NCBI RefSeq assembly: GCF_023556315.2
Contig: NZ_CP116221.1
Coordinates: 3,300,001 to 3,364,000 of the forward strand
From: Psychroserpens ponticola
GTDB lineage: Bacteria > Bacteroidota > Bacteroidia > Flavobacteriales > Flavobacteriaceae
Direction: 5' to 3'
DNA: 64,000 nucleotides
Under the pieces are notes generated by a model. That model saw only the letters and a program-made list of their open reading frames with translations. It was not told the origin of the DNA and ran no database searches. Positions within the stretch are counted from its first letter, which is position 1. Every line of letters begins with the position of its first letter. A program made the position numbers and the translations under genes. Below, one piece after another: positions 5,741 through 63,555 of this stretch.

Positions 5741-6535
5741 TCACTTACTCAATTTAAGTATCCTAAATGCACCCTGAATTACCAAAACAAAGACAATCGT
5801 TCCTATAATCAAATCTGGTTTATTGGAATTTAACCAGTAGACTAAAAGTCCAGCAATTATTACACCTGTATTGATTATTACATCATTTGAGGTAAAAATC
5901 ATACTTGCTTTCATATGAGCTTCGTCTTTACTTTTCGATTTTTGAAGCAAGTACAAACAAATTCCATTTGCGATAAGAGCAAAAATAGAAACGATAATCA
6001 TTGTCGAAAAATTAGGTAGTTTTTCTTCATTAAAGAATCTCCTTAAAACTTCTAAAAATCCGATAATCGCGAGTGTGATTTGGAAATATCCAGCAAGTTT
6101 TGCAATCCGCTTTTTTTTAATCAACGTTCTACCAACAGCAAACAAACTAATTCCGTAAACGAAACTGTCTGCTAACATATCCAAACTGTCCGCAACAAGT
6201 CCCATTGATTTTGAAATGAAGCCAGTTGTCATTTCAATAATAAAAAAAGCAAAGTTGATTGCGAGAACTGTCCAAAGTAATTTTTTTTGATTTGTTTCTT
6301 CTTTGAATTCGATTTGGTCTATTTCTTCTGTTGTCAATAATTTTGCGCCTAAATTAAGTTGTAAAATTGATTGTTCTATTTCCTCAATTTGACCTTGGTG
6401 AAAAACGGTCAGTTTTCGGTTAGTAATATCAAAATCGAGATTCGCTATACTCGAAATCCCATCCAATTTCATTCGGATTAAATTTTCCTCTGAAGGACAG
6501 TCCATTTTAGATATTTCAAATACTGTTTTTTTCAT
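5741..6535 (-). CDS. CDF-type cation transporter with N-terminal HMA-like domain
   Basis: 264 residues. Residues 1-75 resemble a degenerate HMA domain whose site reads MDCPSEE at 11-17, so only one Cys remains. From 88 onward there are about five or six membrane segments of the cation diffusion facilitator type with the metal-site motif ADSLDMLADS at 115-124. It lacks the usual cytosolic C-terminal domain. Likely exports Zn(II), Co(II) or a similar ion. It lies two bases after the TonB receptor gene and shares its unit, close to a Fur-family gene, so Fur-type metal control is likely. Confidence 0.82.
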   Translation of the reverse strand: MKKTVFEISKMDCPSEENLIRMKLDGISSIANLDFDITNRKLTVFHQGQIEEIEQSILQLNLGAKLLTTEEIDQIEFKEETNQKKLLWTVLAINFAFFIIEMTTGFISKSMGLVADSLDMLADSFVYGISLFAVGRTLIKKKRIAKLAGYFQITLAIIGFLEVLRRFFNEEKLPNFSTMIIVSIFALIANGICLYLLQKSKSKDEAHMKASMIFTSNDVIINTGVIIAGLLVYWLNSNKPDLIIGTIVFVLVIQGAFRILKLSK

Positions 6536-6537
6536 AT

Positions 6538-8721
6538 TTAATCATTGTCTTCGTTACCAAAAGGTTTGATAATTACTCCTATACTAAAAATAAAGCCATC
6601 CGTTGGTGCATATATTTCGGGAAAAACGGGATTGTCGTGTGGTGGTAAAACCAAAGGTGAAAACCTACTTTGTCTTCTGTCTGTAAAGTTTTCAAAATTT
6701 ACAAAGGTTGTTCCCCATTTGAAATTTCGTATTGCCACAAAACCCATTGTAACAAAATCCGTCGTTTCTGTGCCGTTAGACAAAAACTGCTTTCCTGTGT
6801 AAAAAGTTTCATAACCTATTCGCCATTTATCAGATTCGTACATCAAAATGCTACCTGCGTTGTATTTTGCTGTGAGTGGTTTTTGCGGATTTCCTGCCAA
6901 ATAGTTCAGTTTTGTGTCAATGAGTGCGTAGTTTATAAACCATCTAAAATCTTTGTATGTAAACTTGATATTAGTTTCCGCTCCTTTGCTTATTATTTTG
7001 TCGGTTGCATTTTCAAACGTAAAAAACCCATCATTTGTTGAATTTAATAATAGTCCTTTGTTAATAGCTGAAACGTAGAAGAGTTGGTTAACGCTAAAAC
7101 CTACCGCATCGAATAACCTTGTTTGGTAGTTCATATCAAAATTAACACCATTAGAACGTTCGGCTTTAAGTACAGCTTTATCTATGGCGAGAACATTTTC
7201 AAAATTTATATTTTCAGCTTCTTCTGTAAAAATATCAGGAATTTTATAGCCTAAACCACCACCAATTCTGCTTGAAAATCCGCTATTATTCTTATAAAGT
7301 AAGGAAATCCTTGGTAGCGGAAAAAAACCGAAATCCGTATTGTAGTCTGCTCTTAATCCTGTTTCTAAAATCCAATTATCTGAAATGTCGTAAATGTTGT
7401 TGACAAACATTCCATAGGTAAGGTCTTTTTGGTCGCGTTGTAATGCTGCATTATTATTTTCATCAAAATTTGATGAGTATAAATTTGCACCAAAAATCCA
7501 GTCTGTTTTTTGAGATGCTCTTTGATATGTAATTTCTGTGAATGTATTGGTTTGTTTACCATCAAAACTAAAATCTGGAATTGTAAGTTTTCTATCGAAA
7601 AACGATATACTATTTTTGATATTTAAAGTGCTTACCGAATCTATTTGAGTTTGATAAACTGCTTGACCGCTCAATCTTTTTGAGATATTTTCTTCGGTAT
7701 ATTGATGGATTCCATTTTCTCCACTTTCAATTTTTGTGATGTCGCCACCAATTCTGTCATCATAAGTACCATTTAGTCCTATCCAAAAAGTTGTTTTTTC
7801 TGAAGGATAATAAAAGAATTTGGGGTTAAAAGACAACGAAGTAGTTTTTGGCAGATTGCTAAAACCATCATCTTCTGGGTCATACGCTTTTTGGTAATGA
7901 CCAGAACCGTATAGAGAAATTCCAAACTTTTCATTCCGTTTGCTGTAAAATACATTCGCTGTACTTCCCAATGCCTGTGTTTGGGTCAACATAATATTCA
8001 GAGTAGGTTCTTCGTCAGGTGTTTTAGATACCATATTTATCAAACCAGCAATAGCTCCACCACCATAGAGTGTTGAAGAACTTCCTTTAATGATTTCAAA
8101 TTGCTTTAAGTCTAATGGCGGAATTTGTAAAATACTTAAACCGCTGGAAAAACCACTATATAAAGGAAATCCGTCTCTTAAAAGTTGTGTGTATCGGCCA
8201 TCCAAACCCTGAATTCTAATATTTGTATTTCCACTACTTAATGAGGTTTGTTGCATTTGTATTCCTGTACTTTCACGAAGCACCATTGAAATATTTGTAG
8301 GATTCATAACCGCTTTTTCGCCTAATTCCTCTGCTCCAATAAATTCTATTCTCGTTGGAATTTTCTTGACGGTCCTCGTACTTCGTGAAGATTGTATGAC
8401 TACTTCGTCCAGTTCATTTCCGCCAGGTTTAAGTTTGAAAGTGAACGTTTTTTTTGCGCCAACTTCAATAGTTGTTTCTATGGTTTTAAAACCTACGTAT
8501 GAAATTTTGAGGATATGGTTTCCGTTCGGAATTTCTGTAAACTTTGCAATACCGTTAAAATCAGTAATCGCTCCTTTTTCAAATTCCTCGAAATAAACGG
8601 TTGCTCCAGGTAATGGCTCGTTGGTTTCTGCATCAGTAATGAAAATAGAAATATCGCTGTTCTGTGCGAAGGAAATAAATGATATAGCGAAAAATAATGA
8701 AGTTAAAAATGCTTTTGCCAT
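6538..8721 (-). CDS. TonB-dependent outer-membrane receptor
   Basis: 727 residues. Signal peptide to about residue 19 (ending FAQ), then a carboxypeptidase-regulatory-like beta domain (about 23-95, ITDAETNEPLPGATV), a plug domain (about 115-225, ending in a GSSSTLYGGGAIAGLIN segment) and a 22-strand type barrel. Takes up a metal complex or other ligand using TonB energy. Operon with a CDF transporter and downstream of a Fur-family gene suggest a metal-linked ligand, but uptake and export in one unit is odd. The gene has its own promoter and candidate operator in the 66-base gap after fur. Confidence 0.9.
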   Translation of the reverse strand: MAKAFLTSLFFAISFISFAQNSDISIFITDAETNEPLPGATVYFEEFEKGAITDFNGIAKFTEIPNGNHILKISYVGFKTIETTIEVGAKKTFTFKLKPGGNELDEVVIQSSRSTRTVKKIPTRIEFIGAEELGEKAVMNPTNISMVLRESTGIQMQQTSLSSGNTNIRIQGLDGRYTQLLRDGFPLYSGFSSGLSILQIPPLDLKQFEIIKGSSSTLYGGGAIAGLINMVSKTPDEEPTLNIMLTQTQALGSTANVFYSKRNEKFGISLYGSGHYQKAYDPEDDGFSNLPKTTSLSFNPKFFYYPSEKTTFWIGLNGTYDDRIGGDITKIESGENGIHQYTEENISKRLSGQAVYQTQIDSVSTLNIKNSISFFDRKLTIPDFSFDGKQTNTFTEITYQRASQKTDWIFGANLYSSNFDENNNAALQRDQKDLTYGMFVNNIYDISDNWILETGLRADYNTDFGFFPLPRISLLYKNNSGFSSRIGGGLGYKIPDIFTEEAENINFENVLAIDKAVLKAERSNGVNFDMNYQTRLFDAVGFSVNQLFYVSAINKGLLLNSTNDGFFTFENATDKIISKGAETNIKFTYKDFRWFINYALIDTKLNYLAGNPQKPLTAKYNAGSILMYESDKWRIGYETFYTGKQFLSNGTETTDFVTMGFVAIRNFKWGTTFVNFENFTDRRQSRFSPLVLPPHDNPVFPEIYAPTDGFIFSIGVIIKPFGNEDND

Positions 8722-8787: not shown

Positions 8788-9198
8788 TTATTTGTTGCAA
8801 TTATCGCATAAACCTTTTACGACCATATTTGCCTGTTGTAGTTTGAAGTTTTTAGGAAGTTGAATTTTGGGAATTGGAACATCAAAAAGGCAGAATGTTT
8901 TATCGCAGTTTGTACAATAAAAATGGTAGTGCAAATCCTTTGGGTCACAGTTACAGCCTTCGGCGCAAATAGCATATTTGGTCATTCCAGAGCCATCTTC
9001 AATGCTATGGATGACTTTGTTTTCCTCAAAGGTTTTTAATGTTCTAAAAATAGAACTCCTGTCTGTATAAGCTAATGCGTTTTCAATATCTTTTAGTGAT
9101 TGGGCTTTTTCTTGGCTTAATAGATGGCGTAAAACCACAGTTCGGACTGCGGTATTTTTTACCTTTTTTATTTCTAGTATTTCTTCTTCAGTTTGCAT
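8788..9198 (-). CDS. Fur-family transcriptional repressor
   Basis: 136 residues. An N-terminal winged helix (about 15-80, with TDRSSIFRTLKTFEENKVI as recognition region) and a C-terminal dimer domain. Structural zinc pairs CTNC near 95-98 and CDNC at the C-terminus, plus a metal-binding block with CNCDPKDLHYHF. It lacks clear features that would split Zur from Fur or PerR. It precedes the TonB receptor and CDF genes on the same strand. A TGCAA-N5-TTGCA palindrome sits just after its stop codon. Confidence 0.87.
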   Translation of the reverse strand: MQTEEEILEIKKVKNTAVRTVVLRHLLSQEKAQSLKDIENALAYTDRSSIFRTLKTFEENKVIHSIEDGSGMTKYAICAEGCNCDPKDLHYHFYCTNCDKTFCLFDVPIPKIQLPKNFKLQQANMVVKGLCDNCNK

Positions 9199-52537: not shown

Positions 52538-53731
52538 ATGATTCATAAATCAACAATTGACAGAAAAGAAAAAAAGCAATTTCACGATAGCACTGATGAT
52601 AATGGATATATCCAATTGCTGCATTCTGGCGAAGAGTATTTTCTTCGACTAAAAAAAATAATTCAGAATGCACAAAAAGAAATACATCTACAAACCTATA
52701 TTTTTGAGGACGACGAAACAGGAAACGATATAGCAGATTGCCTGAAAGAAGCTGCCCAACGAAATGTAAAAGTGTATGTTTTATTGGATGCCTATGGCAG
52801 CGCCTCACTTTCCGATAGTTTTGTTCAGGATTTACAGCAACACGGTATTTTGATTCGTTTCTTTTCCCCTTTATTTTCCCTAAATAATTTTTATATAGGT
52901 CGACGTATGCATCATAAAGTTGTTGTAGCTGATGGAAGTATGGCATTGATTGGTGGTATTAATATTGGTAATAAATATCATGGAAACGCGAATACCGAAC
53001 CCTGGCTTGATTACGCGGTACAATTATATTGTCCTGCTGCAGAAGATTTACAAAAACTATGTCACGATTATTTCTTCAAAAAAGGAAGTTCTAAGAAAAT
53101 ACTACCCGTTTTACATTCTGCTGGTGATGCTCGTATTGGAGTTTTACAAAATGATTGGCTGCAAGGAAAAACAGAAGTTTGTGATGCCTACACAAGAGCT
53201 ATTAGTAATGCCGAAAAGGAAATAGTAATTGTAGCCTCATATTTCTTACCAGGAAGTAAATTGACAAAGGCATTGAAAAAAGCTTGCACCAAAGGAATAA
53301 AAACAAAAGTAATCTTAGCAGGTATCAGCGACGTACCATTAGTGCGCAGAGCTACAGAACATTTGTATACATCTTTACTTAGTCACAATATAAAGATATA
53401 TGAGTGGAACAAATCTGTAGTACATGGCAAAGCAGCTATGGTAGATAACAAATGGTCTATTGTAGGCTCGTTTAATCTGAACAGTCTTAGCTGTTATGGA
53501 AGCATTGAGATGAATGTAGAAATTGAATCCGTCGAATTTGCTAAAAACCTTAACTTAGACTTTGAAAAGGTTATAAGCGAGTGTAGTCAAATTACATTGG
53601 AGACTCTTAGAGAAAGATCAGGGATGTTTAAAAATTTGGCCAATTGGGTTTCTTATCAAATAGTACGTACATCTATGCTTTTTCTCACCTTTCTTCCACA
53701 TTTAAGATTTTTAAAAAACTACAGATTTTAA
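52538..53731 (+). CDS. Phospholipase D-like / cardiolipin synthase-type protein
   Basis: 397 residues from ATG 52538 (GTG at 52535 is an alternative). Two HKD motifs: HHKVVVADGSMALIGG about 127-142 and HGKAAMVDNKWSIVGSFN about 307-324. No N-terminal membrane helices, unlike full cardiolipin synthases, but a hydrophobic C-terminus. Either phosphatidyl transfer or a nuclease-like role. It is 62 bases after the MFS gene. Last gene of the metal half of the island. Confidence 0.87.
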   Translation: MIHKSTIDRKEKKQFHDSTDDNGYIQLLHSGEEYFLRLKKIIQNAQKEIHLQTYIFEDDETGNDIADCLKEAAQRNVKVYVLLDAYGSASLSDSFVQDLQQHGILIRFFSPLFSLNNFYIGRRMHHKVVVADGSMALIGGINIGNKYHGNANTEPWLDYAVQLYCPAAEDLQKLCHDYFFKKGSSKKILPVLHSAGDARIGVLQNDWLQGKTEVCDAYTRAISNAEKEIVIVASYFLPGSKLTKALKKACTKGIKTKVILAGISDVPLVRRATEHLYTSLLSHNIKIYEWNKSVVHGKAAMVDNKWSIVGSFNLNSLSCYGSIEMNVEIESVEFAKNLNLDFEKVISECSQITLETLRERSGMFKNLANWVSYQIVRTSMLFLTFLPHLRFLKNYRF

Positions 53732-54198
53732 AATATTCACCAAAATTTTATATCAGTAAATATTATTTATTGAAACGGCACAACAAAGATTAATCAATTT
53801 TCTAATGTTAGTTCATTATCTTTTAACTTATAATTTAATTATTACTCAAATCACAATAATTGTGTTCCATTATAAAGAAATCAAATAACTAGTTAAATAA
53901 AATTACGATTAGTTATTGATTAATTTAGATTATAGAATTGAATATTTTAATAGAATCTGTGACTATAGATAAATGGATTCGGATACATAAAGTTCTCCTC
54001 TCCTATTTATAGGTGTTTCAAGAGAAATGATACAAATACGGAACAATTATTTTTGAAAATAAGAATAAAGCGAAAAGTCAATAAAACACTTTACATTTTC
54101 CCCAACCACTCCAACATATTAGCTTGTAATCTTATTTGGTTTTGGGCCTGGTTTAATTGCTTCAATGATTATCATAATGTTGAATTTATCTTATTGTA
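53732..54198. other. Gene-free AT-rich stretch between convergent genes
   Basis: 467 bases between the phospholipase-D gene (rightward) and the DUF6527 gene (leftward). I see no gene, strong hairpin or terminator with a T run. It is the border between the metal module and the ubiquitin-like module. Confidence 0.5.
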
Positions 54199-54600
54199 TT
54201 ACAAGTTTGAAAACCAATCTAAAATTCTTCTAAAAATTGATTTTTTAGTCTGTTTGGATTCAAAACCTTTAAAGTATTCAGTTCTTTTTCGTTCTTCAGC
54301 TTCTCGACCAGCTATGATTTCCTCTTCACTCCAATCATATGACCATTCAATAATACCATCTGTTATCCAGTAATGTGACCTACAAGGAAGTTGCCAATTA
54401 CCTATTGATGGATATAAAGTTGGTTTGTTATTTGTTTCTTCAAATGACCATTCAGAAGGATCTAATGGTGTAATTATTTTATTTTTGCATCCACATGGGC
54501 ATAAATGACCAGCAATACCAAATTCTTCCGAAACATATAAAAAACCATCTTTTAGCTCTTTGGGTAAAAAATGTACTTTTAATAACTTAATTTTTTCCAT
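54199..54600 (-). CDS. DUF6527 family protein (zinc-binding, ubiquitin-like cluster)
   Basis: 133 residues. A Cys cluster CPCGCKN (Cys 34, 36, 38) and LPCRSHYWI (Cys 73, His 76) looks like a zinc site. WITDGIIEWSYDW and the preceding blocks match DUF6527, a family found beside ThiF and multiubiquitin genes. Its role in the system is unknown; a binding or protease-like part has been proposed for some such families. Last gene of the leftward operon, overlapping the E1-like gene by 14 bases. Confidence 0.8.
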   Translation of the reverse strand: MEKIKLLKVHFLPKELKDGFLYVSEEFGIAGHLCPCGCKNKIITPLDPSEWSFEETNNKPTLYPSIGNWQLPCRSHYWITDGIIEWSYDWSEEEIIAGREAEERKRTEYFKGFESKQTKKSIFRRILDWFSNL

Positions 54601-55759
54601 TTTCTCCTAAACAGTTTAGTTCATCTATATTGAATAGCATGTGATAATAAGAATTATCGTCGGCATAAAACCCTCTTAATTGTTTATATTTTATAATTGC
54701 TAAACATGCGTTTAAAGCATTAAGTTCTGATATTTGAATATTATTTTTATATACGTCATCAGGTATATCTGTCAACGGAGCCAATTTTTTTTGCATTAAG
54801 CTTCGAGCAGATTCTTTGGAAAAACTACTTACTCTTAATGTACCACTAATTGAACCCATTTCTCTATCAAGTCCCATTCCTACATCTATAAATGGAATTT
54901 CCATTTTAATTAATAACTCAAAAATTTCAGACCTTGAATCTCCTTTATCTACACAAACAAAAGCAAACGTTACACCTTCCAAATCTTTTATTGAATCACT
55001 ATCTATATATTTTGAATAAATATTTACTTCTGAACGAAAATTTTCATAACGTTTTTTATAAACTTCTGATTTTAGTTTTCCAAGCTCCTCTTCTTCTAAT
55101 TTCCCTGGAGAACGAAAAGCATTATGAACATGAAAACGCTTTAAATCAAAACCTTTAATTTCTTTTACAGGAGTTTTAACAAGAAAATCTAGCAAGTATG
55201 AACCTGTACCACCTAACCCAATAACTGCAATAGTATCTAATTCGAATTTATTATTTAAATCGCCTATTTCAGCTCTACTAGTTAGAGTATCTCTATATTT
55301 AAATACAGAATTACTAGATTCATCTACAACTCTAAATGTAAAAGGATTAGCTTCAAATTTTGCGATTGCAGGGCCAGAAATTATTTCAACGTAACTTTCA
55401 ATTTTATCAAACCAATTTTTAAATCCTCCTCTAGGTTTATTTGAAAATGAACGTTGTACAACTAAATCATCAGAAATTAAGTTTAATTTGGTTCCACCTC
55501 CACCCAGGTTTCTTATTGGTGTCCCACCAAGTTCGTGTGGATGACTTCCACAAAAAAATATTTGATGATCTTGCATTTTAATCTGACGTTGATTAACAAA
55601 AACTAAAACAGAAACGATTGCTCCTATTTGTAACTGTCCTTTATCATCAATATATGGGATATCTCGAACCACTAAATAATTACTATCAATTGATAATGCA
55701 TATCCTTTTTTAATTAGTAGCTCGAGGTCTTTATTATAATCTAGTAAAGTACTTAACAT
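54587..55759 (-). CDS. ThiF/E1-like adenylyltransferase with N-terminal E2-like/DUF6791-type domain
   Basis: 390 residues. Nucleotide motif GLGGTGSYLLDFL with Gly 181-186, and FDLKRFHVHNAFR following. Residues 1-170 form a separate domain with FFCGSHPHELGG (Cys 70, HPH) that resembles the E2-like fold; I infer that Cys 70 could carry the Ubl, but no alignment was possible. The usual catalytic loop Cys of E1 is not clear (FAFVCVDKGD is a candidate). Activates the C-terminus of the upstream multiubiquitin protein in the model. Gap of three bases from it. Confidence 0.83.
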   Translation of the reverse strand: MLSTLLDYNKDLELLIKKGYALSIDSNYLVVRDIPYIDDKGQLQIGAIVSVLVFVNQRQIKMQDHQIFFCGSHPHELGGTPIRNLGGGGTKLNLISDDLVVQRSFSNKPRGGFKNWFDKIESYVEIISGPAIAKFEANPFTFRVVDESSNSVFKYRDTLTSRAEIGDLNNKFELDTIAVIGLGGTGSYLLDFLVKTPVKEIKGFDLKRFHVHNAFRSPGKLEEEELGKLKSEVYKKRYENFRSEVNIYSKYIDSDSIKDLEGVTFAFVCVDKGDSRSEIFELLIKMEIPFIDVGMGLDREMGSISGTLRVSSFSKESARSLMQKKLAPLTDIPDDVYKNNIQISELNALNACLAIIKYKQLRGFYADDNSYYHMLFNIDELNCLGENGKN

Positions 55760-55762
55760 ATT

Positions 55763-56422
55763 TTATGATTGTCCAGTATGTTTTACTTTAAAACTCATTC
55801 CATCTTTTACTTTAACAACTCCTCCAGGTGATAAAATACCTTCTGGTTTATTTCCATGTCCTCTTTTATAAGTTACTGAATAAGTTCTTTCGGGATGTTG
55901 TGGGAAATCTGGGAATGCTAATGTTACTACCGCTGTGTATGAAATATTACCTTTTTGAACTTCATGTGGTGTTCCATTAACTATAATGGTAATATTTTTG
56001 TCGTCTAATTCACAACTTATAAATTTTGCTTCATTCTTAATAGCAACTTTATGATCTCTATCATTCTTATATCCTATTTCAATTTCCCCTTTAAGTTGTT
56101 TAAGAAAATACTTTTCAGGATTTTTACCTGCCATAGTTAGAATTTCATCAGGTGTCTTAAAACATTCATCAACTTCTATTTTAATATCGTCAACATAAAT
56201 ATCTAATACTTTATAAGGTTTAGCTACGAATCCTTCAATACCAGGACTCTTTAAGTCTATAACTTCATCAAGTTGAACAGGTTCGAAACCTTTTTGATTA
56301 ATTTTTAAGAGTAACTCGTATTCTTCAACAGGAATTAAACCTGCATTTTCTAAAATTTTTATACCGTTAATTTTAGAGTTTTCACTTTGGTATTTTTTAC
56401 CATTTAATTTGTACTTTTCCAT
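55763..56422 (-). CDS. Multiubiquitin-domain protein
   Basis: 219 residues with up to three beta-grasp (ubiquitin-like) units. The C-terminal one is the clearest: ITIIVNGTPHEVQKG, ISYTAVVTLAFPDF, TYSVTYKRG, GNKPEGILSPG and VVKVKDGMSFKVKHT. Two divergent units precede it (about 1-70 and 70-135). Ends HTGQS, not in Gly-Gly, so conjugation through its own C-terminus would need another route or trimming. Substrate or polymer of the system. First gene of the leftward operon, with its own promoter. Confidence 0.85.
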   Translation of the reverse strand: MEKYKLNGKKYQSENSKINGIKILENAGLIPVEEYELLLKINQKGFEPVQLDEVIDLKSPGIEGFVAKPYKVLDIYVDDIKIEVDECFKTPDEILTMAGKNPEKYFLKQLKGEIEIGYKNDRDHKVAIKNEAKFISCELDDKNITIIVNGTPHEVQKGNISYTAVVTLAFPDFPQHPERTYSVTYKRGHGNKPEGILSPGGVVKVKDGMSFKVKHTGQS

Positions 56423-56472
56423 AAATAGGTTTTTTTTATTATATTTGTTACATTAATGAAATATTGTTGCAT

Positions 56473-56503
56473 CAAAGATACGCTAATTGGCAATGTCTCA
56501 CAA
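56473..56503 (-). promoter_or_regulatory. Predicted promoter of the multiubiquitin operon
   Basis: On the minus strand TATCTTTG (56480-56473) matches the TAnnTTTG -7 consensus, and TTG (56503-56501) lies 20 bases upstream, the normal Bacteroidetes -33 spacing. Leader about 45 bases. Confidence 0.6.
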
Positions 56504-56511
56504 GTGATACA
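56494..56511. promoter_or_regulatory. 18-base palindrome, candidate XRE operator
   Basis: TGTCTCAC-AA-GTGATACA, 7 of 8 positions symmetric, lying across the -33 TTG of the leftward promoter and 43 bases before the XRE start. Size and position fit a repressor of the lambda-type fold that shuts both divergent operons. Confidence 0.6.
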
Positions 56512-56554
56512 CTGTCTTACTTATTAACAACTTTTAAACTTTATTAACATTTAG

Positions 56555-56890
56555 ATGAATTCTGAACTTAATACAAGTCTTTTAGCTGGCATGCTTAAAG
56601 CAAAAAGAGGTAGTACTGGATTAAGAAATACAGCTGCCCAAATTGGAGATATTAGCTCCGCTACACTTTCAAGAATAGAACAAGGTAAACTTCCAGACGT
56701 AGAAACATTTATTAAAATTTGTAAGTGGTTAGAAGTAACTACAGAAACATTTATTATTTCAAATACAAAAACTAAAAATGTTTCTTCAAAAGATAAAATT
56801 CTTGCACATCTACGAGCAGATAGGGAACTTGACCCTGAAACAATGAAAATGCTAACGCAAGTAATAGACTTGGCTTATAATAGAATATAA
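56555..56890 (+). CDS. XRE-family repressor
   Basis: 111 residues. HTH in the N-terminal half: TGLRNTAAQIGDISSATLSRIEQGKLPDVETF, a lambda-cro/XRE type. C-terminal half short and helical. Encoded immediately before an ImmA-type protease, as in ImmR-ImmA switches of ICEs and phages. It probably represses its own and the divergent operon through the palindrome at 56494-56511. The stop codon abuts the next start. Confidence 0.88.
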   Translation: MNSELNTSLLAGMLKAKRGSTGLRNTAAQIGDISSATLSRIEQGKLPDVETFIKICKWLEVTTETFIISNTKTKNVSSKDKILAHLRADRELDPETMKMLTQVIDLAYNRI

Positions 56891-57478
56891 TTGAGTAAAA
56901 AAAGCTACTTAAAAAGGGGCTTCAAAGCCGAGGCAGAAAGAATTTCCAATAATTTTAGAAAAGACATTGGATTAGATATACATGATCATTTGTGTGCTTT
57001 TAAGTTGGCTAATTTTTTAAACATTGAAGTAATTTCTCCTGAAATTCTTGGTATTGATGATAAAGGATTAGATGTATTAATGGGTAATACAAAGAAAAGT
57101 TCTGGATGGTCAGCCTTAACAATGACAAATTCTAGTGATAAAAAGATCATCATACATAATACAAGAGCAAGTGATGCAAGACAACAAAGTGATTTAATGC
57201 ATGAGTTAGCACATATAATATGTAAGCATGAAATTATTGTTCCTGATGGGATAGTCTTACCTAGTTATATGAGGTATTATGATAAATCACAAGAAGCTCA
57301 AGCTGAATACCTTGGAGCTGCTTTACAATTACCTAGAGAATGTTTGGTTTGGGCTTTAACTACTGGTAATATGTCTAAAAGAGAAATATCCACAAATTAC
57401 TCTGCTAGTTTGCAAATGGTTAATTTTAGAATTAATGCAACTGGGATTAGTAAACAAGTAAAATATATTAGGACTTAA
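56891..57478 (+). CDS. ImmA/IrrE-type metallopeptidase
   Basis: 195 residues, TTG start directly after the XRE stop. Zinc motif HELAH at 104-108 with a downstream Glu-containing helix (SQEAQAEYLGAALQLPREC). ImmA-like peptidases cleave their paired repressor after a stress signal; this is the expected role for the XRE protein beside it. The C-terminal half has a HTH-like end (REISTNYSASLQMVNFRINATG). Confidence 0.87.
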   Translation: MSKKSYLKRGFKAEAERISNNFRKDIGLDIHDHLCAFKLANFLNIEVISPEILGIDDKGLDVLMGNTKKSSGWSALTMTNSSDKKIIIHNTRASDARQQSDLMHELAHIICKHEIIVPDGIVLPSYMRYYDKSQEAQAEYLGAALQLPRECLVWALTTGNMSKREISTNYSASLQMVNFRINATGISKQVKYIRT

Positions 57479-57480
57479 GA

Positions 57481-58710
57481 TTGACACTACTAGAGGAATT
57501 ATCAAATAAAGATTTCTTATTTGAGGCATGGAACCAATTAAAAAAAGAAAATGAAGAATCTCATGGGTTGTCAGGACCTACTATAAAAGAGTTTCAAGAA
57601 AACCTTACTACTAATATTTTTAACATTAGACACTTTCTAAAAAAAGGAAATTATAGATTTTCCCAAAATAGAGCTGCTGTTATAAAAAAAGAAAACGGAA
57701 AGTATAGACCATTACAAATACCAGAAATTCGAGATAGAGTTGTTCTTAAAGCACTTGCTATTCTTCTTGAAGAAAACCTCAAAGAATTACTTAAAGACAG
57801 TGAAGGCATAAGTTATGCTTATCAAAAAGGCAAAGGTGTAAAACAAGCTGTGCTTCAAATGAAAAGCATTTTTGATCAAGGAAAACAAATAGTACTTAAA
57901 GCTGATATTGTTAATTTTTTTGAAGAAGTTGATAAAGATTCACTTTTAAAGAGTAAAATATTTCCAAACCTTAAAGATAAAACAATAAATTTTTTAATAG
58001 TAAATGCTCTTAATCAAAAACTTGGAGGATTAAAGCGCTTGGGTAAGAAACATAAAGAATTGTTTAAAAATGCTGGAAAAGGTATTCCTCAAGGTAATCC
58101 ACTTTCTCCATTGCTCTCAAATGTTTATTTGGCAGAGTTTGATCGTCATATGAAAAATGAAAACCATCCAATGGTACGATATGCAGATGATTTTATTGTT
58201 TTATTTGATGATGTCGAAAATGCTAAAGATGGATATAATCTTATTTCAGAATACTTAACTAATGAACTTGGATTAAAAATTCATGTGTTAGACGAGAAAG
58301 ATATGGGGAAAACTACAATTGTAAATCCATTTAATCAAACTCTATCTTTTCTCTCAATTCGTTTTGATGGCAAAAAATTATTACCTCCACGAAATTCTAT
58401 TCCATATCTAAAAAGCAAAATCGCGAAAGAAGTTAAGCAAGGAGAACTTAATGAAGATACTTTTAATTCAGTTTATACAATTATTACAAATTGGATTGCT
58501 TTATACTCGTATTTGGAAATAGATATCTATTTTGATGCGATTGATAATTATTTTATAACAACATTGAAGAAAAAATTTGGTCACGAAAATATTAAAATCA
58601 CTACTTGTGAAAAATTAAAAGCTAGATATTTTAAGGAACGAAATAAAAAAAACAAAGCACCATTTTGGAAAAAAATATTGCCTTCTTTCTCAAAATCAAA
58701 AAGTATATAA
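57481..58710 (+). CDS. Group II-like reverse transcriptase without maturase/endonuclease domain
   Basis: 409 residues, TTG start (no ATG before residue 127). RT domains: RT0 region AWNQLKKENEESHGLSGP, YRPLQIPEIRDRVVLKAL, motif A LKADIVNFFEEVD (Asp 142), motif B GIPQGNPLSPLLSNVYL (200-216), catalytic YADDF at 234-238, and LSFLSIRFDGKKLLP. No retron VTG/NAxxH features, and no HNH or clear domain X beyond a short thumb. Closest in pattern to domesticated group II-like RTs. Third gene of the XRE-ImmA operon, gap two bases, so under the same control. Confidence 0.88.
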   Translation: MTLLEELSNKDFLFEAWNQLKKENEESHGLSGPTIKEFQENLTTNIFNIRHFLKKGNYRFSQNRAAVIKKENGKYRPLQIPEIRDRVVLKALAILLEENLKELLKDSEGISYAYQKGKGVKQAVLQMKSIFDQGKQIVLKADIVNFFEEVDKDSLLKSKIFPNLKDKTINFLIVNALNQKLGGLKRLGKKHKELFKNAGKGIPQGNPLSPLLSNVYLAEFDRHMKNENHPMVRYADDFIVLFDDVENAKDGYNLISEYLTNELGLKIHVLDEKDMGKTTIVNPFNQTLSFLSIRFDGKKLLPPRNSIPYLKSKIAKEVKQGELNEDTFNSVYTIITNWIALYSYLEIDIYFDAIDNYFITTLKKKFGHENIKITTCEKLKARYFKERNKKNKAPFWKKILPSFSKSKSI

Positions 58711-59172
58711 TTTTATATAGAATTATCATTCCACACACATTACGCTTCCCTCCTTGCGTCGTCGCATAAAAAGTGTTCCATTGGCTTTAGTAAAAGAACC
58801 TTTTGGGAATAAATTTTTTCAAGAAACTGGAGTTACAACTTTCGCTTTTACCCAAAGCTCAAGCTACATAACGCAATGACATTATAGTACAAAGTTATTT
58901 GTATAGCTGTTTGCATCAATGGTTAATTTGATAGCTATAATTATATTATGCAAAATATCAATATCTAACCTTCCCTTCCTACCCTATTTTTGAACTGTGA
59001 TAAACAGCAAAAAACAGAATACTAAGACTAATATTTAGTAATATGATTTCAAAACACCTATTTGAATTCTTCAAATTTCTTTGCTTTAACTTAAATAATT
59101 TTAATATCTATCTATCCTAATTTATCTAAAACTAAATACTAAAGTTATATATTTGCTTTACATATAAAGTAT
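58711..59172. other. Non-coding stretch after the reverse transcriptase
   Basis: No clear gene. Its first part (58754-58876) is structured, see next entry; the rest is AT-rich with no repeat I could recognise. The minus strand has a short protein-like run around 58745-58845 but it is broken by a stop. Confidence 0.5.
58754..58876. repeat. Structured block directly after the reverse transcriptase
   Basis: TTGCGT (58754-58759) pairs with ACGCAA (58871-58876). Inside, GCTTT-a-GTAAAAG (58784-58796) pairs with CTTTTAC-cc-AAAGC (58845-58858), a 12-pair helix that a further TTG/CAA extends to 15 with a bulge. Begins 44 bases after the RT stop. May be an RT-associated RNA or a dispersed repeat. Confidence 0.5.
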
Positions 59173-59332
59173 AGCGTTAGCTAGTTAACTTGTATCTGAA
59201 AACCGCCAATTTTCTCAAAAGATATTCCACAAGTTTAGTAGTACTAATGCTCACGTTATGGCGTGGGCTTAGTCTATTTGTGGAATGGGTGCTTGGCGGT
59301 ACCTCAGATACGATAGGCTACAGTTCCACGCT
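59173..59332. repeat. Large nested inverted repeat / structured RNA candidate
   Basis: Four perfect or near-perfect nested stems: 59192-59199 with 59304-59311 (8 pairs), 59202-59209 with 59293-59300 (8), 59224-59232 with 59278-59286 (9), and 59249-59255 with 59262-59268 (7, one G-U) closed by a 6-base loop. Outer arms AGCGT/ACGCT and TAGC/GCTA add more. Strongly non-random. It lies 460 bases after the RT and 54 bases before a lipoprotein gene, and could be an RNA or a palindromic mobile repeat. Confidence 0.7.
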
Positions 59333-59385
59333 TATTGTTTTAACAAACTTCATTTTGGAACTGGGTGATTATAATATTAAATATT

Positions 59386-59985
59386 ATGAGAAACCAAATT
59401 ATCAAATTGATATTCTTATCAATTTTAACTACAACCTACTTTGGTTGTTCTTCTGATTCAAACTCAGATGATTGTGAAACTATTACCTGTCTAAATGGAG
59501 GTACATTTGTGGATTGTGAATGTGAATGTCCACTGGGTTACACAGGAAACAATTGTTCTACCCAAGTAAGACCAAGTAAAGTAATCATTACTAAAGCCAT
59601 AGTTAAGGTATTTCCAAATACCGACAATGGAGAATTTTGGGATCTATCAATTCCAGATGCTGAAGATGCTTTACCTGATATTTACATCACTCTTCAAGAC
59701 TCTAATTTGATTACAATCTATGATAGTCCTACATTTTATGAGAATGTGATTTCTGGTGAAGGCACTTTTTTTGAGTTTACGTTGACACCTCCAGTTGAAC
59801 TTACTGTTTATGACAATCCTTTTCTAGTAAATATTTGGGATTATGACACTACTGGTGAAGATGATTTTATGACAAGCTTTGGATTTTTTGCTTATACATC
59901 AAATAACAATTTTCCTGATATAATTACTGTGGTCAGTCAATCAGATGAGATATTGGTTGACTTGGAGGTAACGTACGAGTGGTAA
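59386..59985 (+). CDS. Lipoprotein with EGF-like domain
   Basis: 199 residues from ATG 59386 (an in-frame ATG 21 bases upstream gives a poorer signal). Lipobox Cys 21 (TTYFGCSSD). EGF-like part (CETITCLNGGTFVDCECECPLGYTGNNC, six Cys in pattern) at about 31-58, followed by a ~130-residue C2-like beta domain (FWDLSIPDAEDALPDIYITL, NIWDYDTTGEDD), which may bind Ca2+. Probably surface-exposed. Followed by a strong terminator. Confidence 0.78.
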   Translation: MRNQIIKLIFLSILTTTYFGCSSDSNSDDCETITCLNGGTFVDCECECPLGYTGNNCSTQVRPSKVIITKAIVKVFPNTDNGEFWDLSIPDAEDALPDIYITLQDSNLITIYDSPTFYENVISGEGTFFEFTLTPPVELTVYDNPFLVNIWDYDTTGEDDFMTSFGFFAYTSNNNFPDIITVVSQSDEILVDLEVTYEW

Positions 59986-59993
59986 CAAGATTA

Positions 59994-60026
59994 GGAAAGC
60001 TGAGTTAAACTCAGCTTTCCTTTATT
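59994..60026 (+). terminator. Rho-independent terminator of the EGF-lipoprotein gene
   Basis: Perfect 11-pair stem (59994-60004 with 60010-60020), 5-base loop, followed by TTTATT. Nine bases after the stop codon. Confidence 0.9.
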
Positions 60027-60038
60027 GACTTTATTAAT

Positions 60039-60551
60039 TTAGTTATTGAATAATTTAGGCATAAATAATAGTGTCAGACCTGATAAAACTAAAGATCCTA
60101 AAGATCCATATAGCAATCGAGAATCATAATTACCTTGCTCTATAGACTCATTTGCATTTAAAGTTATCATTAATCTGCTAATCTCCATGTTAGCAGTTTT
60201 CAATTCTTCATGTAAATCAAATATAGTCTTGTTCATCTCAAGCTGTTCTTTGACATAATTCCTGTTTGTCTTTTGTTCCATCTCAATACGATGCTCTGCA
60301 TTTTCAAGTGACAAATTCAACTTCCTATTTTGTTTCTCGACAGTTTTTAGTTGTGACTTCAGCTCTTCTTCTTTTGGAGAAGTTTTTCCAATGTAATCGT
60401 AACTGTGCTTATAAGCATGAACAATACTGGCTAATAATTCAGATCTCGAGATTTGTTTTTCGTTTGCGATTTGTTGCAATGCCGTTTTTTCATCTGTAGT
60501 AGTTTTAAAACTCATCGTGACGTTTTTCTTTGTATCCGTAGTGTTTTCCAT
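60039..60551 (-). CDS. Ribbon-helix-helix-like protein with coiled coil and membrane anchor
   Basis: 170 residues. Residues 8-45 (NVTMSFKTTTDEKTALQQIANEKQISRSELLASIV) resemble a CopG/Arc-type ribbon-helix-helix DNA-binding fold. Residues about 60-135 are a coiled coil (ELKSQLKTVEKQNRKLNLSLENAEHRIE). The C-terminus is a membrane helix (LLYGSLGSLVLSGLTLLFMP). A DNA-binding protein tethered to the membrane is unusual; possibly positions the element or controls the divergent gene through the upstream operator cluster. Confidence 0.65.
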   Translation of the reverse strand: MENTTDTKKNVTMSFKTTTDEKTALQQIANEKQISRSELLASIVHAYKHSYDYIGKTSPKEEELKSQLKTVEKQNRKLNLSLENAEHRIEMEQKTNRNYVKEQLEMNKTIFDLHEELKTANMEISRLMITLNANESIEQGNYDSRLLYGSLGSLVLSGLTLLFMPKLFNN

Positions 60552-60573
60552 AGTTTACTTGATTTTATTAGTT

Positions 60574-60614
60574 AGGTATACCAGCTCTCTACTCTAGGTG
60601 TAACCTAGGTATAC
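60574..60614. promoter_or_regulatory. Operator cluster between the RHH-like and MerR-like genes
   Basis: AGGTATAC occurs twice, at 60574-60581 and 60607-60614 (33 bases apart, about three helix turns). GGTATACC (60575-60582) is palindromic and CTAGGT-GTA-ACCTAG (60594-60608) is a perfect 6-3-6 inverted repeat between them. Dense symmetric half-sites fit a ribbon-helix-helix or MerR-type binding region serving both divergent genes. Confidence 0.55.
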
Positions 60615-60714
60615 ACATGGTAGATAGTTAGTATAAGTCTACTCATTTTAATACATTGTTGTTTAATTGATTAATTCCTTAATATTTCAAATATAATATT
60701 TTTATAGATAAAAT

Positions 60715-61710
60715 ATGCCTAATAACTTGTTTTTTCTTATTTTTGGAATAATTGTTTTTAATTCCATTAATAAAATGACTAAAGAAACTATAGAAGAAAT
60801 TGGAAACGCTGTATTCGAACAAAGAAATATTAGTCCAACCCATTTAAGTGTCAGTTCTAAAAACATTAACAGTTGGATACGAGGGAAATTGGTGCCATTT
60901 GTCCCAGTACAACAAGCTGAAGATTCAAGCGACCAAGAAATGCCTGCTGCTTCCAATGCAAATAAGAAAAACACATCCATGCCCAAATGGATAAGACTCA
61001 ATCTTGCACAGGCCGTTTGGGTATCAATCGTTAATGAGTTATACAACTTCAAAGTCCCACTAGATAAATTAGAGGAACTGGCTTATAACGTATGGCAAAA
61101 GCCTAGAGAACAAAAGTTTGCCGACAAGGTCTTTGAGCATCATATTAAAGACAATCCAAACAATCTACCTAAGCACGAAATTGATAAACTTAAAAGTCAT
61201 TTAAGAAGCGAGATACTCATGGAGCACTATTTTAGAACTATTATCAACCCATTTACTGAAATTGTCAAATCGGCTTTCTATAGAAATGAGCTGCCTCATA
61301 ACTTCCTATATGTTCCTGAGACAAATGAGTTCATGTTTCATTACCAGCCTCTGAATCTAACTTTAGATTTAACTAGTATCTATCTACAAAAACCGATGAT
61401 TAGTATTCCTATTGTACCAATACTCTCAAAAATACTTTTACAGGAATATGACAATAAAAAGATTAAGGATCTAAATTACCTTTCTAGTATCGAAAAGCAG
61501 ATTAGAGATATTGTCGTTTTTAAAAGACCTAAGGTTGTTGAGATTGCTTTACAGGAGGGAAATATCAAGACAATCGTCGTGACCGAAGAGCACAAAAGCA
61601 GAATACAACTTGCTGAATATATTCTTAAGAATAAAATCAAGAAAGGCTCGAAGCTGCTCATAGATATTAGATCCAATGACCATTATAAGATTACACTTAT
61701 CAAAAAATAA
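60715..61710 (+). CDS. MerR-like HTH protein of the recombinase module
   Basis: 331 residues; ATG 60775 (20 residues later, before TKETIEEIG) is an alternative start. SVSSKNINSWIRGKLVPFVPV and WIRLNLAQAVWVSIVNELYNFKVPLDKLEEL resemble the MerR-type helix-turn-helix and wing. The C-terminal ~180 residues (from about EHYFRTIINPF) are unrecognised. Common next to site-specific recombinases of Bacteroidetes, I believe, so a regulator or excision factor is plausible. Confidence 0.6.
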   Translation: MPNNLFFLIFGIIVFNSINKMTKETIEEIGNAVFEQRNISPTHLSVSSKNINSWIRGKLVPFVPVQQAEDSSDQEMPAASNANKKNTSMPKWIRLNLAQAVWVSIVNELYNFKVPLDKLEELAYNVWQKPREQKFADKVFEHHIKDNPNNLPKHEIDKLKSHLRSEILMEHYFRTIINPFTEIVKSAFYRNELPHNFLYVPETNEFMFHYQPLNLTLDLTSIYLQKPMISIPIVPILSKILLQEYDNKKIKDLNYLSSIEKQIRDIVVFKRPKVVEIALQEGNIKTIVVTEEHKSRIQLAEYILKNKIKKGSKLLIDIRSNDHYKITLIKK

Positions 61711-61730
61711 TTATGAAACTTTAATATAAA

Positions 61731-61847
61731 ATGAAGCACATCGTAGAACTCAATCAGTCCCTGAAAACACAGCCTGGTTTCAATCCTAACAGAGATGGAC
61801 CAGAAATTATGCTTATTCGAAGAGGCAAAACAACTATTAAACGATAA
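61731..61847 (+). CDS. Possible small protein, 38 residues
   Basis: Starts ATG 61731, basic tail (MLIRRGKTTIKR), no domain. Overlaps the next small frame from 61795 in another phase, so at most one may be real, unless they are coupled. Low support. Confidence 0.3.
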   Translation: MKHIVELNQSLKTQPGFNPNRDGPEIMLIRRGKTTIKR

Positions 61848-61947
61848 CGGAACTGATTCTTATACAGATTCAGAAATAAGGGAAATCATATCCCTTTTAA
61901 ACATATTCTCAAATATCATATACCTTAACCTAACACAAAATTCTTAA
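61795..61947 (+). CDS. Small protein upstream of recombinase, 50 residues
   Basis: ATG 61795, begins MDQKLCLFEEAKQLLNDNG. Two amphipathic helices (about 4-15 and 25-42) with many Leu/Ile; sensible amino acid composition and ends six bases before the recombinase ATG. Perhaps a regulator or directionality factor of the recombinase; no family known to me. Confidence 0.5.
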   Translation: MDQKLCLFEEAKQLLNDNGTDSYTDSEIREIISLLNIFSNIIYLNLTQNS

Positions 61948-61953
61948 AAGACT

Positions 61954-63555
61954 ATGAAAAACGTTATACTATATGGAAGGGTTTCTACTGATGAGCAAGC
62001 CGATAAAGGGTTTTCGCTAAGAGATCAAGAACAGAAATTATTAAACTATTGTTCAGTCAATAATTTGAACGTAGTCTTTATTTTCCGTGATGATCATTCA
62101 GCTAAAACTTTCAATCGTCCTGAATTCAAAAAACTGATTAATTTTATAAAAAAGAATAAATCCAAAGTTGATGGACTATTATTTACTAAGTGGGATCGGT
62201 TTTCTAGGAATACTTCCGAGTCTTATAATAAAATAAAAGACTTTAATGAACTTGGAGTAATTGTGAATGCTATTGAACAGCCTCTAGATCTATCTATTCC
62301 TGAACAAGGTCTGATGCTAGCAGTTTATCTTTCCATGCCTGAAGTTGAGAACCACAGACGTTCCTTAAATATTACTGCTGGCATGAGACGTTCTCTGAAG
62401 GAAGGGCGTTACTGTGTTTCTCCACCCAAAGGTTATAGCATGGGACGTGATGAGCAAAATAAACCAATACTCATTCCAAATGAGGATGCTAAATTCATTA
62501 CAGAAGGATTTAAATTATTAAGTAAGGGATTATATAGTCAAAAAGATGTCTTAACCAAATTGCAAGTGAAAGGGCTTAAAACCAGTAAGCCTGCATTTGG
62601 GCGCATCATAAGAAATCCTTTATATAAAGGAGCAATCCGAATTAAAGCCTTTCAAGATGAACCTAAGCAAATTATAAAGGGTATACATGAGCCCTTGATT
62701 TCTGAAGCCATATTTGATAAGGTACAAGATCTTATAAATAACAACTCAAAACAGTACAGAGTTACTCACAAAAAAGTAAATATGAAGTTTCCTTTAAAAG
62801 GGTTTGTACTATGTCCCAGTTGTCTTAAACCACTTAAAGCAAGTACTTCTAAAGGTAGAACTCAATACTATTCTTATTATCACTGTTACAAACCCTGTAA
62901 TACAAGGTACAAAGCTGAAGATGTTGAACTTTGGATGTATTCTTTTTTAAGCGGAATTTCCTTAAATAAAAACGCTCAAAAATTATTAGTCAAAATGATT
63001 GAAAATCGTTTTATGCAGCAAACCAAATCTAAAAAACTCAGCCCAAAGCATTATCAAGAAATTGAATCCCTTGAACTAAAACTTATTAAGTTACAAGATC
63101 TTTATTTGGATGGTGAGTTCAATTCTGATGAATATAAAAGTGCAAAAAAACGTCTTCAGAAAAGATTAAATGAGCTTAAAGAAATTGAAGGGACTTTTAA
63201 AAAATCTAAAGAAATTCTGGGTATTTACAAAAAAGGGATTGAAAAACTTGAATCTTTTGATAAACAGTTTACTCATAGCGATATAGACCGAAAAAGACAG
63301 CTGTTGGGTTCGATTTTTCCTGAAAAGTTCCAATTTGAAAATAATGAAGTTCGAACCGCAGATATCAATCCAATACTCTTAAAGATTGCCAATGTTAATA
63401 AGGTATTGAAAGGGAATAAAAAAAGGGACAAATCAAAAAAAGATGATTTGTCCCAGGATGTACAGGCGGAGAGACTCGAACTCTCACACCTCGCGGCACT
63501 AGATCCTAAGTCTAGCGTGTCTACCAATTCCACCACGCCTGCAACTTTCCAATAA
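61954..63555 (+). CDS. Large serine recombinase (integrase) whose frame runs through the tRNA-Leu antisense
   Basis: 533 residues. Catalytic resolvase domain 1-140 with YGRVSTDEQ (nucleophile Ser 11) and LLFTKWDRFSRNTSESY; recombinase domain about 160-255 (PKGYSMGRDEQNKP); zinc ribbon from CPSCLKP near 288 to YYHCYKPCNTRY near 315; coiled coil about 345-430. From about residue 489 the frame reads the inverse of the tRNA terminator and tRNA (AERLELSHLAALDPKSSVS), so the true C-terminus likely ended earlier before insertion. Integrates and excises the island at the tRNA-Leu region. Confidence 0.9.
   Translation: MKNVILYGRVSTDEQADKGFSLRDQEQKLLNYCSVNNLNVVFIFRDDHSAKTFNRPEFKKLINFIKKNKSKVDGLLFTKWDRFSRNTSESYNKIKDFNELGVIVNAIEQPLDLSIPEQGLMLAVYLSMPEVENHRRSLNITAGMRRSLKEGRYCVSPPKGYSMGRDEQNKPILIPNEDAKFITEGFKLLSKGLYSQKDVLTKLQVKGLKTSKPAFGRIIRNPLYKGAIRIKAFQDEPKQIIKGIHEPLISEAIFDKVQDLINNNSKQYRVTHKKVNMKFPLKGFVLCPSCLKPLKASTSKGRTQYYSYYHCYKPCNTRYKAEDVELWMYSFLSGISLNKNAQKLLVKMIENRFMQQTKSKKLSPKHYQEIESLELKLIKLQDLYLDGEFNSDEYKSAKKRLQKRLNELKEIEGTFKKSKEILGIYKKGIEKLESFDKQFTHSDIDRKRQLLGSIFPEKFQFENNEVRTADINPILLKIANVNKVLKGNKKRDKSKKDDLSQDVQAERLELSHLAALDPKSSVSTNSTTPATFQ
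63418..63454 (-). terminator. Terminator of the tRNA-Leu gene
   Basis: Perfect 10-pair stem GGGACAAATC/GATTTGTCCC (63425-63434 with 63445-63454), 10-base loop, then a run of T on the minus strand (63424-63418). It lies seven bases after the tRNA 3' end and inside the recombinase frame. Confidence 0.88.
63461..63542 (-). tRNA. trnL: tRNA-Leu (UAG anticodon)
   Basis: 82 bases. Acceptor GCAGGCG pairs with CGCCTGT (first pair G-U), discriminator A at 63461, no encoded CCA. D-loop GGTGGAATTGGTAGACAC, anticodon stem CTAGA/TCTAG around loop CTTAGGA giving TAG, variable arm TGCCGCGAGGTGT-like as expected for Leu, and T-loop GTTCGAGTC. It reads CUA/CUN codons. Likely the integration site of the island. 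Confidence 0.95.

Follow-up and report, generated by a model that had tools for sequence, protein, structure and literature searches.

A divergent multi-ubiquitin-like and XRE-ImmA-reverse transcriptase gene block of Psychroserpens ponticola as a candidate defence cassette

Gene content and conservation of the six-gene block

The 64,000-nucleotide stretch of the Psychroserpens ponticola genome analysed here (the window, C1:3300001-3364000 of a 4.03 Mb one-contig genome) carries two divergent operons. Genes for a multi-ubiquitin-like protein (Ubl), a DUF6791-ThiF enzyme of E1 type and a DUF6527 protein read leftward, and genes for an XRE-type regulator, an ImmA-type metallopeptidase and a reverse transcriptase (RT) read rightward. 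With a probability of about 0.6, we interpret the locus as a mobile cassette for stress response or defence, its two arms being under a switch resembling CapH/CapP. The six open reading frames (ORFs), their positions and the 132-base divergent gap, as given in a preliminary description made from the sequence alone, agree with the ORF list (132 bases separate the start codons), and Pfam upholds the family assignment of all six genes, the motifs HELAH, IPQGNPLSP and YADD being read in the proteins. No base separates XRE from ImmA (spacing 0) and 2 bases separate ImmA from the RT; TTG start codons are listed for the ImmA and RT ORFs.

54129..58891, no strand: cassette, the block in common with loci L034 and L038 (blastn homology limits)
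54199..54600, minus: DUF6527 protein, 133 amino acids (aa), third gene of the ubiquitin-like (Ub-like) operon (Pfam PF20137, 8.4e-25)
54587..55759, minus: E1-like adenylating enzyme, 390 aa, DUF6791 domain and ThiF/BubC-like domain (Pfam DUF6791 3.2e-44, ThiF 1.5e-10)
55763..56422, minus: multi-ubiquitin-like protein (Ubl), 219 aa, C-terminus ...HTGQS (Pfam Multi_ubiq 6e-26)
56423..56554, no strand: divergent gap common to both operons (ORF limits)
56555..56890, plus: predicted XRE-type repressor, 111 aa (HTH_3 3.4e-6)
56891..57478, plus: ImmA/IrrE-type metallopeptidase, 195 aa, HELAH (Peptidase_M78/IrrE 8.8e-14)
57481..58710, plus: reverse transcriptase, 409 aa, motifs IPQGNPLSP and YADD (RVT_1 2.6e-23)

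The same gene order is found in Maribacter polysaccharolyticus (L034) and Aurantibacter aestuarii (L038), both Flavobacteriaceae. These loci were recovered through the E1 and not through the RT: a search of GTDB contigs with a four-protein E1 alignment gave 237 relatives, the best 80 being retained, and the 84 loci used below are the window, L027-L031 and 78 of these best 80. L063 and L076, in which no E1 ORF was recognised though both have an ImmA match, were dropped; L027 and L036, on the same contig, and the near-duplicates L067/L072 and L091/L092 were all counted. DNA homology between the three six-gene loci ends near 54129 and 58891 in blastn comparisons, and inside the block it is missing over 55990-56436, the N-terminal part of the Ubl. 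The order and the sharp homology limits in three genera suggest that the six genes act as a single, though rare, unit. Identity to the window is 90% (L034) and 88% (L038) for XRE and 93% and 88% for the RT, and the 2-base ImmA-RT spacing is identical in all three genera. For the five genes other than the Ubl gene, the ratio of nonsynonymous to synonymous substitution (dN/dS) is 0.04-0.17 over all pairs; the RT alone has 0.08-0.12. These values indicate purifying selection.

The two arms have different relatives. The E1 of L034 shares 98% identity with its Hyunsoonleella flava counterpart (L085; dS 0.08) and 72% with the window E1 (dS 1.30), and the L034 RT is 93% identical to the window RT (dS 0.41). 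At the place of XRE-ImmA-RT, L085 carries genes related to the DUF2779 and WYL genes that Pfam identifies in L033. Homology between L034 and L085 runs from the Ubl gene start (L034:6737) through the Ub-like arm, at 94% over 2712 columns, and an outer repeat, on the far side of the other arm, is common to both as well (90.7% over 161 bp). Neither the L085 nor the L033 genome has a match to the window RT at E≤1e-40. Since E1 and RT have unlike histories while the ends are common and L085 is without the RT, the regulator-plus-RT arm appears, from these comparisons, to have been exchanged as a block with the Ub-like arm and ends kept.

The XRE-ImmA pair and the divergent gap

By an ImmA profile built from ORFs of the same loci, 44 of the 84 have an ImmA gene no more than 4.5 kb upstream of the E1, in 40 of these cases in divergent orientation; in the sequence that the loci cover, none of the 84 has one downstream. 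Some loci have little upstream or downstream sequence; ImmA is upstream in 43 of the 74 with at least 2.5 kb there. The holders belong to seven phyla (Bacteroidota, Pseudomonadota, Planctomycetota, Acidobacteriota, Chloroflexota, Actinomycetota and Verrucomicrobiota), and the link between ImmA and the Ub-like operon drawn in the preliminary description proves to be a strong one. On an E1 tree of 67 rows, with labels entered by hand for 62 of them, the ImmA label changes at least 16 times, at least 11 of these forced by well-supported branches; it is scattered and hardly clustered, as few changes being needed in 44 of 500 shuffles. So many changes suggest that the pairing was gained or lost many times. 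Partner groups at the loci comprise several XRE types and sigma-factor-like proteins with a small extra gene beside ImmA, and a WYL protein group is present at Ub-like loci without ImmA; these labels rest on Pfam results for one or two representatives each, one sigma-like group having no Pfam match. At L091 a relative of the window XRE-ImmA pair has a Ub-like operon on one side and, starting 415 bases past ImmA on the other, a type II operon of the cyclic oligonucleotide-based antiphage signalling system (CBASS).

In the published survey of Bub operons, CapW or CapH+CapP accompanies 219 of 544, and CapP is activated by single-stranded DNA (ssDNA) and then cleaves CapH (PMC13373217, cited in part here and below). 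Our ImmA link agrees with this pairing and that part is not new. The gene set had been thought unfamiliar; the pairing of Bub operons with CapH+CapP was already in print, and the RT is the addition.

The divergent gap is closely alike in the window, L034 and L038, and carries two predicted features.

56494..56520, no strand: three predicted XRE half-sites TGTCTCAC, GTGATACA, TGTCTTAC (motif TGTHTYA[CT])
56473..56503, minus: likely promoter of the Ub-like operon, TTG-N20-TATCTTTG, Bacteroidota type, with the -33 part overlapped by the half-sites

A palindrome overlapping a promoter had been reported here. With 9-base arms and gaps of 0-4 across the 132 bases, the best candidate matches at 7 of 9 positions and is equalled in 424 of 500 dinucleotide shuffles; in the gaps of the relatives, as good a palindrome arises in 451 of 500 (L034) and 155 of 500 (L038). 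The palindrome thus does not rise above chance. The half-site motif occurs three times in the window, four in L034 and five in L038 (0 of 300 shuffles each). It was chosen after inspecting these three gaps, and six other loci, serving as a test, lend it mixed support; among them L095 has three half-sites (0 of 300 shuffles) and L073 two (5 of 300). The block CAAAGATACG is invariant in the window, L034, L038 and the Mariniphaga relative L035; against the Bacteroidota promoter consensus, it reads as the -7 element from which the Ub-like operon would be transcribed. These sequences support, without proving, a predicted XRE operator overlapping the Ub promoter, so the overlap survives from the earlier claim with half-sites in place of the palindrome.

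The two arms and their boundary elements

The window RT scores 201 bits with the generic PADLOC RT model and 137 bits with UG17; its best PDB sequence is 9d5x, a G2L4 RT (E 6e-27). It reaches 200 bits with the group II RT model TIGR04416, below the cut-off of 300, and 53700-59400 has no Rfam match at E≤1; a group II intron was rejected on both counts. The protein was searched against 296, 395 and 397 genomes and a six-RT alignment against 385 (order, phylum, family and class, in overlapping samples). Matches at E≤1e-70 or better were, besides the window itself, the Aurantibacter copy (taken as G816 from its position), G482, G744, G966 and G1137, with identities of 38% (G482), 43% (G744) and 44% (G966); 27 further genomes of the phylum scan, with weaker matches (5e-35 or weaker), were left out of the count. 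All three RTs found in the close clade sit inside the six-gene block. The four more distant relatives stand apart from Ub-like operons: L132, L133 and L137, around three of them, have no window-protein match except the RT, and the RT of L032 is likewise apart, as judged by eye. This RT is present in 3 of the 84 Ub-like loci and directly follows ImmA at 3 of 47 ImmA genes; L102 has a different, 557-aa RT-like ORF.

The preliminary description had allowed that the two operons might rarely occur together elsewhere and the RT be an unrelated neighbour, and these counts bear this out in part. The RT could then be a passenger, a standalone enzyme that landed behind ImmA in one Flavobacteriaceae lineage and has no joint function with the Ub-like arm, an arm found with other regulator arms too. 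We hold this to be unlikely, if the most serious of the alternatives: its rarity at Ub-like loci and its solitary distant relatives favour it, but the spacing kept to the base in three genera, the purifying selection on the RT, the confinement of the close clade to the block and the lack of an RT match in the L085 and L033 genomes, whose Ub-like arms are close, speak against it.

Twin long direct repeats stand immediately upstream of the RT in all four distant relatives, 98-100% identical within a genome, 118 bp (G744), 118 bp (G966), 92 bp (G482) and 109 bp (G1137) long and spaced by 348-381 bp.

L132:6051-6168 and 6431-6548, twin repeats; L133 has the same layout on the reverse strand
L032:8610-8701 and 8991-9082, twin repeats
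L137:6215-6323 and 6563-6671, twin repeats

Between L132 and L133 both copies differ at the same places, as if homogenised, and a 22-base core is common to three of the four relatives. The repeats are possibly an RNA template or part of a copying mechanism. Such a pair is found at none of 18 RT loci of weaker similarity; a pair of only 22 bp is present at L010, and the RT of L016 adjoins a long repeat array whose units are about 70% alike. The window RT is without twin repeats, ImmA abutting it and a self-comparison of 48-64 kb revealing none; in this form of the RT, the ImmA switch may have taken the place of an RNA or repeat partner.

In the Ub-like arm, residues 5-218 of the Ubl match PDB 9cd2 (E 1e-9) and BubA 9ea8 (E 0.0035) in a PDB sequence search. 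The E1 carries the BubC-type domain of the Bub pathway: its fold matches include BubC, ThiF and also MccB, with BubCD level with ThiF at the top of the list. All 66 correctly identified Ubls end in Ser and none in Gly-Gly (85 loci gave 70 picks; L029, L030, L080 and L087 were judged mis-picks and excluded), and Pfam recognises no E2 or JAB in the three-gene operon. MccB modifies its peptide by adenylation or the addition of a small molecule. With Ser termini, no recognised E2 or JAB and a fold match to MccB, the E1 might similarly modify the Ubl C-terminus by adenylation or small-molecule addition, without conjugation, the cassette then producing a modified signal or a toxin-like protein. We regard this as distinctly unlikely, since BubCD, the joint top fold match, comes from a pathway that a paper's title links with protein conjugation (Ye 2026) and the uncharacterised DUF6791 could act as a transfer domain.

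The DUF6527 protein has a metal-binding-like CxCGC...C..H pattern with C36, C38, C73 and H76 invariant across 59 sequences; its AlphaFold2 model (predicted local distance difference test score 90) gives no Foldseek match at E≤0.001. By eye, L029:3153-4338 and L030:4742-5942 have the DUF6791 and ThiF parts on two separate overlapping ORFs, so that the E1 and its N-terminal domain can be split. A second partner set of Ub-like operons consists of an AAA ATPase (about 390 aa) and a subtilase-type protease (about 800 aa), named from Pfam on L093 only; the ImmA profile has zero matches in the ten AAA/subtilase loci L028, L060, L061, L093, L097, L099, L100, L102, L106 and L109.

The limits of Flavobacteriaceae cassettes seem to be marked by two kinds of end that differ from each other and read outward, A (ACATAACG-short-AATTATAG) and B (ACATAACGCRGWACATTATAG); judged by eye, they often lie 3-12 kb from each other and in tandem.

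58711..58966, no strand: RT-side outer boundary element of the window, in which 58866-58887 is end B (ACATAACGCAATGACATTATAG); conservation in L034 and L038 extends to about 58891
End motifs: L034:4276, 9272; L038:4264, 9339, 9403, 14015; window 58866
End motifs: L085:3165, 3344, 9273, 9476; L103:4297, 4362, 9165, 9230, 14303, 14368

We read the sequence after end B in the window as a partner arm. Related end copies in the same genome (C1:1496077, 1511929, 1522750 and 1536686) stand beside ordinary-looking genes, not defence genes alone. Abutting ends in L103, L111 and L038 fold as clear hairpins reminiscent of attC sites, and the window copy gives no such clear hairpin on folding. A loose end pattern occurs in 75 of 149 family genomes, with about 147 matches against about 70 for a reversed control, so that many matches are chance. 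An integron cassette was rejected: the best TIGR02249 score is 121 bits (cut-off 265), none exceeding the cut-off in the window's genome, the only one tested. The cargo of 18 stretches between end motifs (L138-L155; 44 of 90 ORFs scanned) is mixed: some have PADLOC matches, type I and II restriction genes among them, and others, by eye, ordinary metabolic or efflux-like genes; no enrichment is claimed for these stretches taken by themselves. Across a boundary element from the Ub-like cassette lie a Gabija GajB gene (L103:839-2728, 815 bits) and CBASS genes for a phospholipase effector and a cyclase (L038:9667-13425). In the window, 60039-63555 codes for a weakly NikA-like protein (18.8 bits, below cut-off) and then for a large serine recombinase; the end of the latter runs into a tRNA-Leu gene (63460-63542, minus), and an integrated element may have its edge here, some 3 kb away from the cassette.

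XRE-ImmA pairs are also known as regulators of mobile elements, and together with the sharp ends, the repeated boundary elements and the arm exchange this would suit a selfish addiction or stabilisation module, an option we consider very unlikely because CBASS (L038) and Gabija (L103) genes occupy adjoining stretches and no toxin family appears among the Pfam results for the six genes.

Proposed operation and comparison with known systems

If the locus is a two-armed defence cassette, XRE would sit on the gap half-sites in quiet cells and hold both operons down. DNA damage or phage replication would supply an activating ligand, ssDNA in the case of the published CapP, upon which ImmA would cut or displace XRE and both arms would be expressed, the Bub-type E1-like enzyme activating the Ubl on the left and the RT being made on the right. 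The shared-switch model of the preliminary description, of which this is a version, is strengthened by the order kept in three genera, the ImmA tie and the half-sites over the Ub promoter, and weakened by the absence of the RT from most Ub-like loci and the isolation of the four distant RTs. The proposal is also favoured by the purifying selection on the five measured genes, the half-sites at L073 and L095, the XRE-ImmA pair beside CBASS at L091 and the published action of CapP on CapH. The absence of the RT from most loci and the lack of a recognised E2 or JAB weigh against it, as do several further points. The window ImmA scores about equally weakly as capP (2.4e-7) and RmrA (7.8e-7) in PADLOC and is without a PDB sequence match; HExxH is recognised in 39 of the 44 ImmA loci, leaving 5 of 44 without a recognised motif. 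Among the test loci, L035 has two half-sites (30 of 300 shuffles), L091 and L092 one each (46 and 47 of 300), and the L077 gap zero. According to PMC13373217, Bub operons have yet to be demonstrated to guard against phage.

Because CapP is activated by ssDNA (PMC13373217), DNA made by the RT can be imagined to feed ImmA. By such positive feedback the RT product would keep an ssDNA-triggered ImmA active, a brief phage or damage signal would be latched and the Ub-like arm would be driven as well, a speculation that we think improbable. If true, it would be to our knowledge the first case of an RT amplifying a CapH/CapP-like switch and being exchanged as one arm with its regulator. On the shared-switch reading as such, two lines of bacterial immunity that have been investigated separately until now, ubiquitin-like modification and reverse transcription, would be tied to one DNA-damage-type switch, in a compact system for testing RT products as alarm signals. 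The natural arm swaps, with nearly the same Ub-like arm beside another regulator, offer a means to assign the role of each arm.

Among the matches listed in a literature search whose scope left the main Bub papers outside, no title joins multi-ubiquitin operons with RTs. The RT resembles G2L4 and group II intron enzymes in having a G2L4 RT as its best PDB sequence match, but no Rfam match at E≤1 lies in 53700-59400. It resembles defence-associated reverse transcriptase 10 (DRT10, UG17) in profile, at 137 bits, and differs in its higher scores with the generic and group II models and in the lack of a recognised SLATT partner. DRT10 needs a SLATT protein (PMC12632851, cited in part), and none is matched in ten Pfam-scanned proteins of 54199-63555, the RT neighbours being ImmA and the cassette end.

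The Ub-like arm is like the PolyUbl operons with a 'domain X'-E1 and metal-binding protein Y (Iyer 2006, PMC1779556, Table 1 row 6e, cited in part), in having a Ubl of the kind with one to three repeats, an E1 with a non-JAB N-terminal domain and a metal-binding protein; no linked XRE-ImmA-RT arm figures in the part of that paper considered. Most Ubl families newly found there are without a terminal Gly or any other highly conserved C-terminal residue, whereas the 66 Ubls here share their final Ser. With the Bub pathway the operon has in common a Multi-ubiquitin-type Ubl (BubA) and a BubC-type E1 domain, but DUF6791 replaces the JAB half, no separate E2-like BubB is recognised and an RT arm is added. 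To judge from PDB titles, BubD is the JAB half fused to the E1 in that pathway, and BubB, a separate gene, is presumably E2-like. The window pair differs from CapH/CapP in standing between two divergent operons, its ImmA being a candidate CapP; it is like CapH/CapP in joining a helix-turn-helix repressor and an HExxH peptidase beside such an operon, with repeated half-sites in the gap. A Ub-like operon with an ImmA-type controller was thus already known, and what the present locus adds is the RT arm, the conservation in three genera and the arm exchange.

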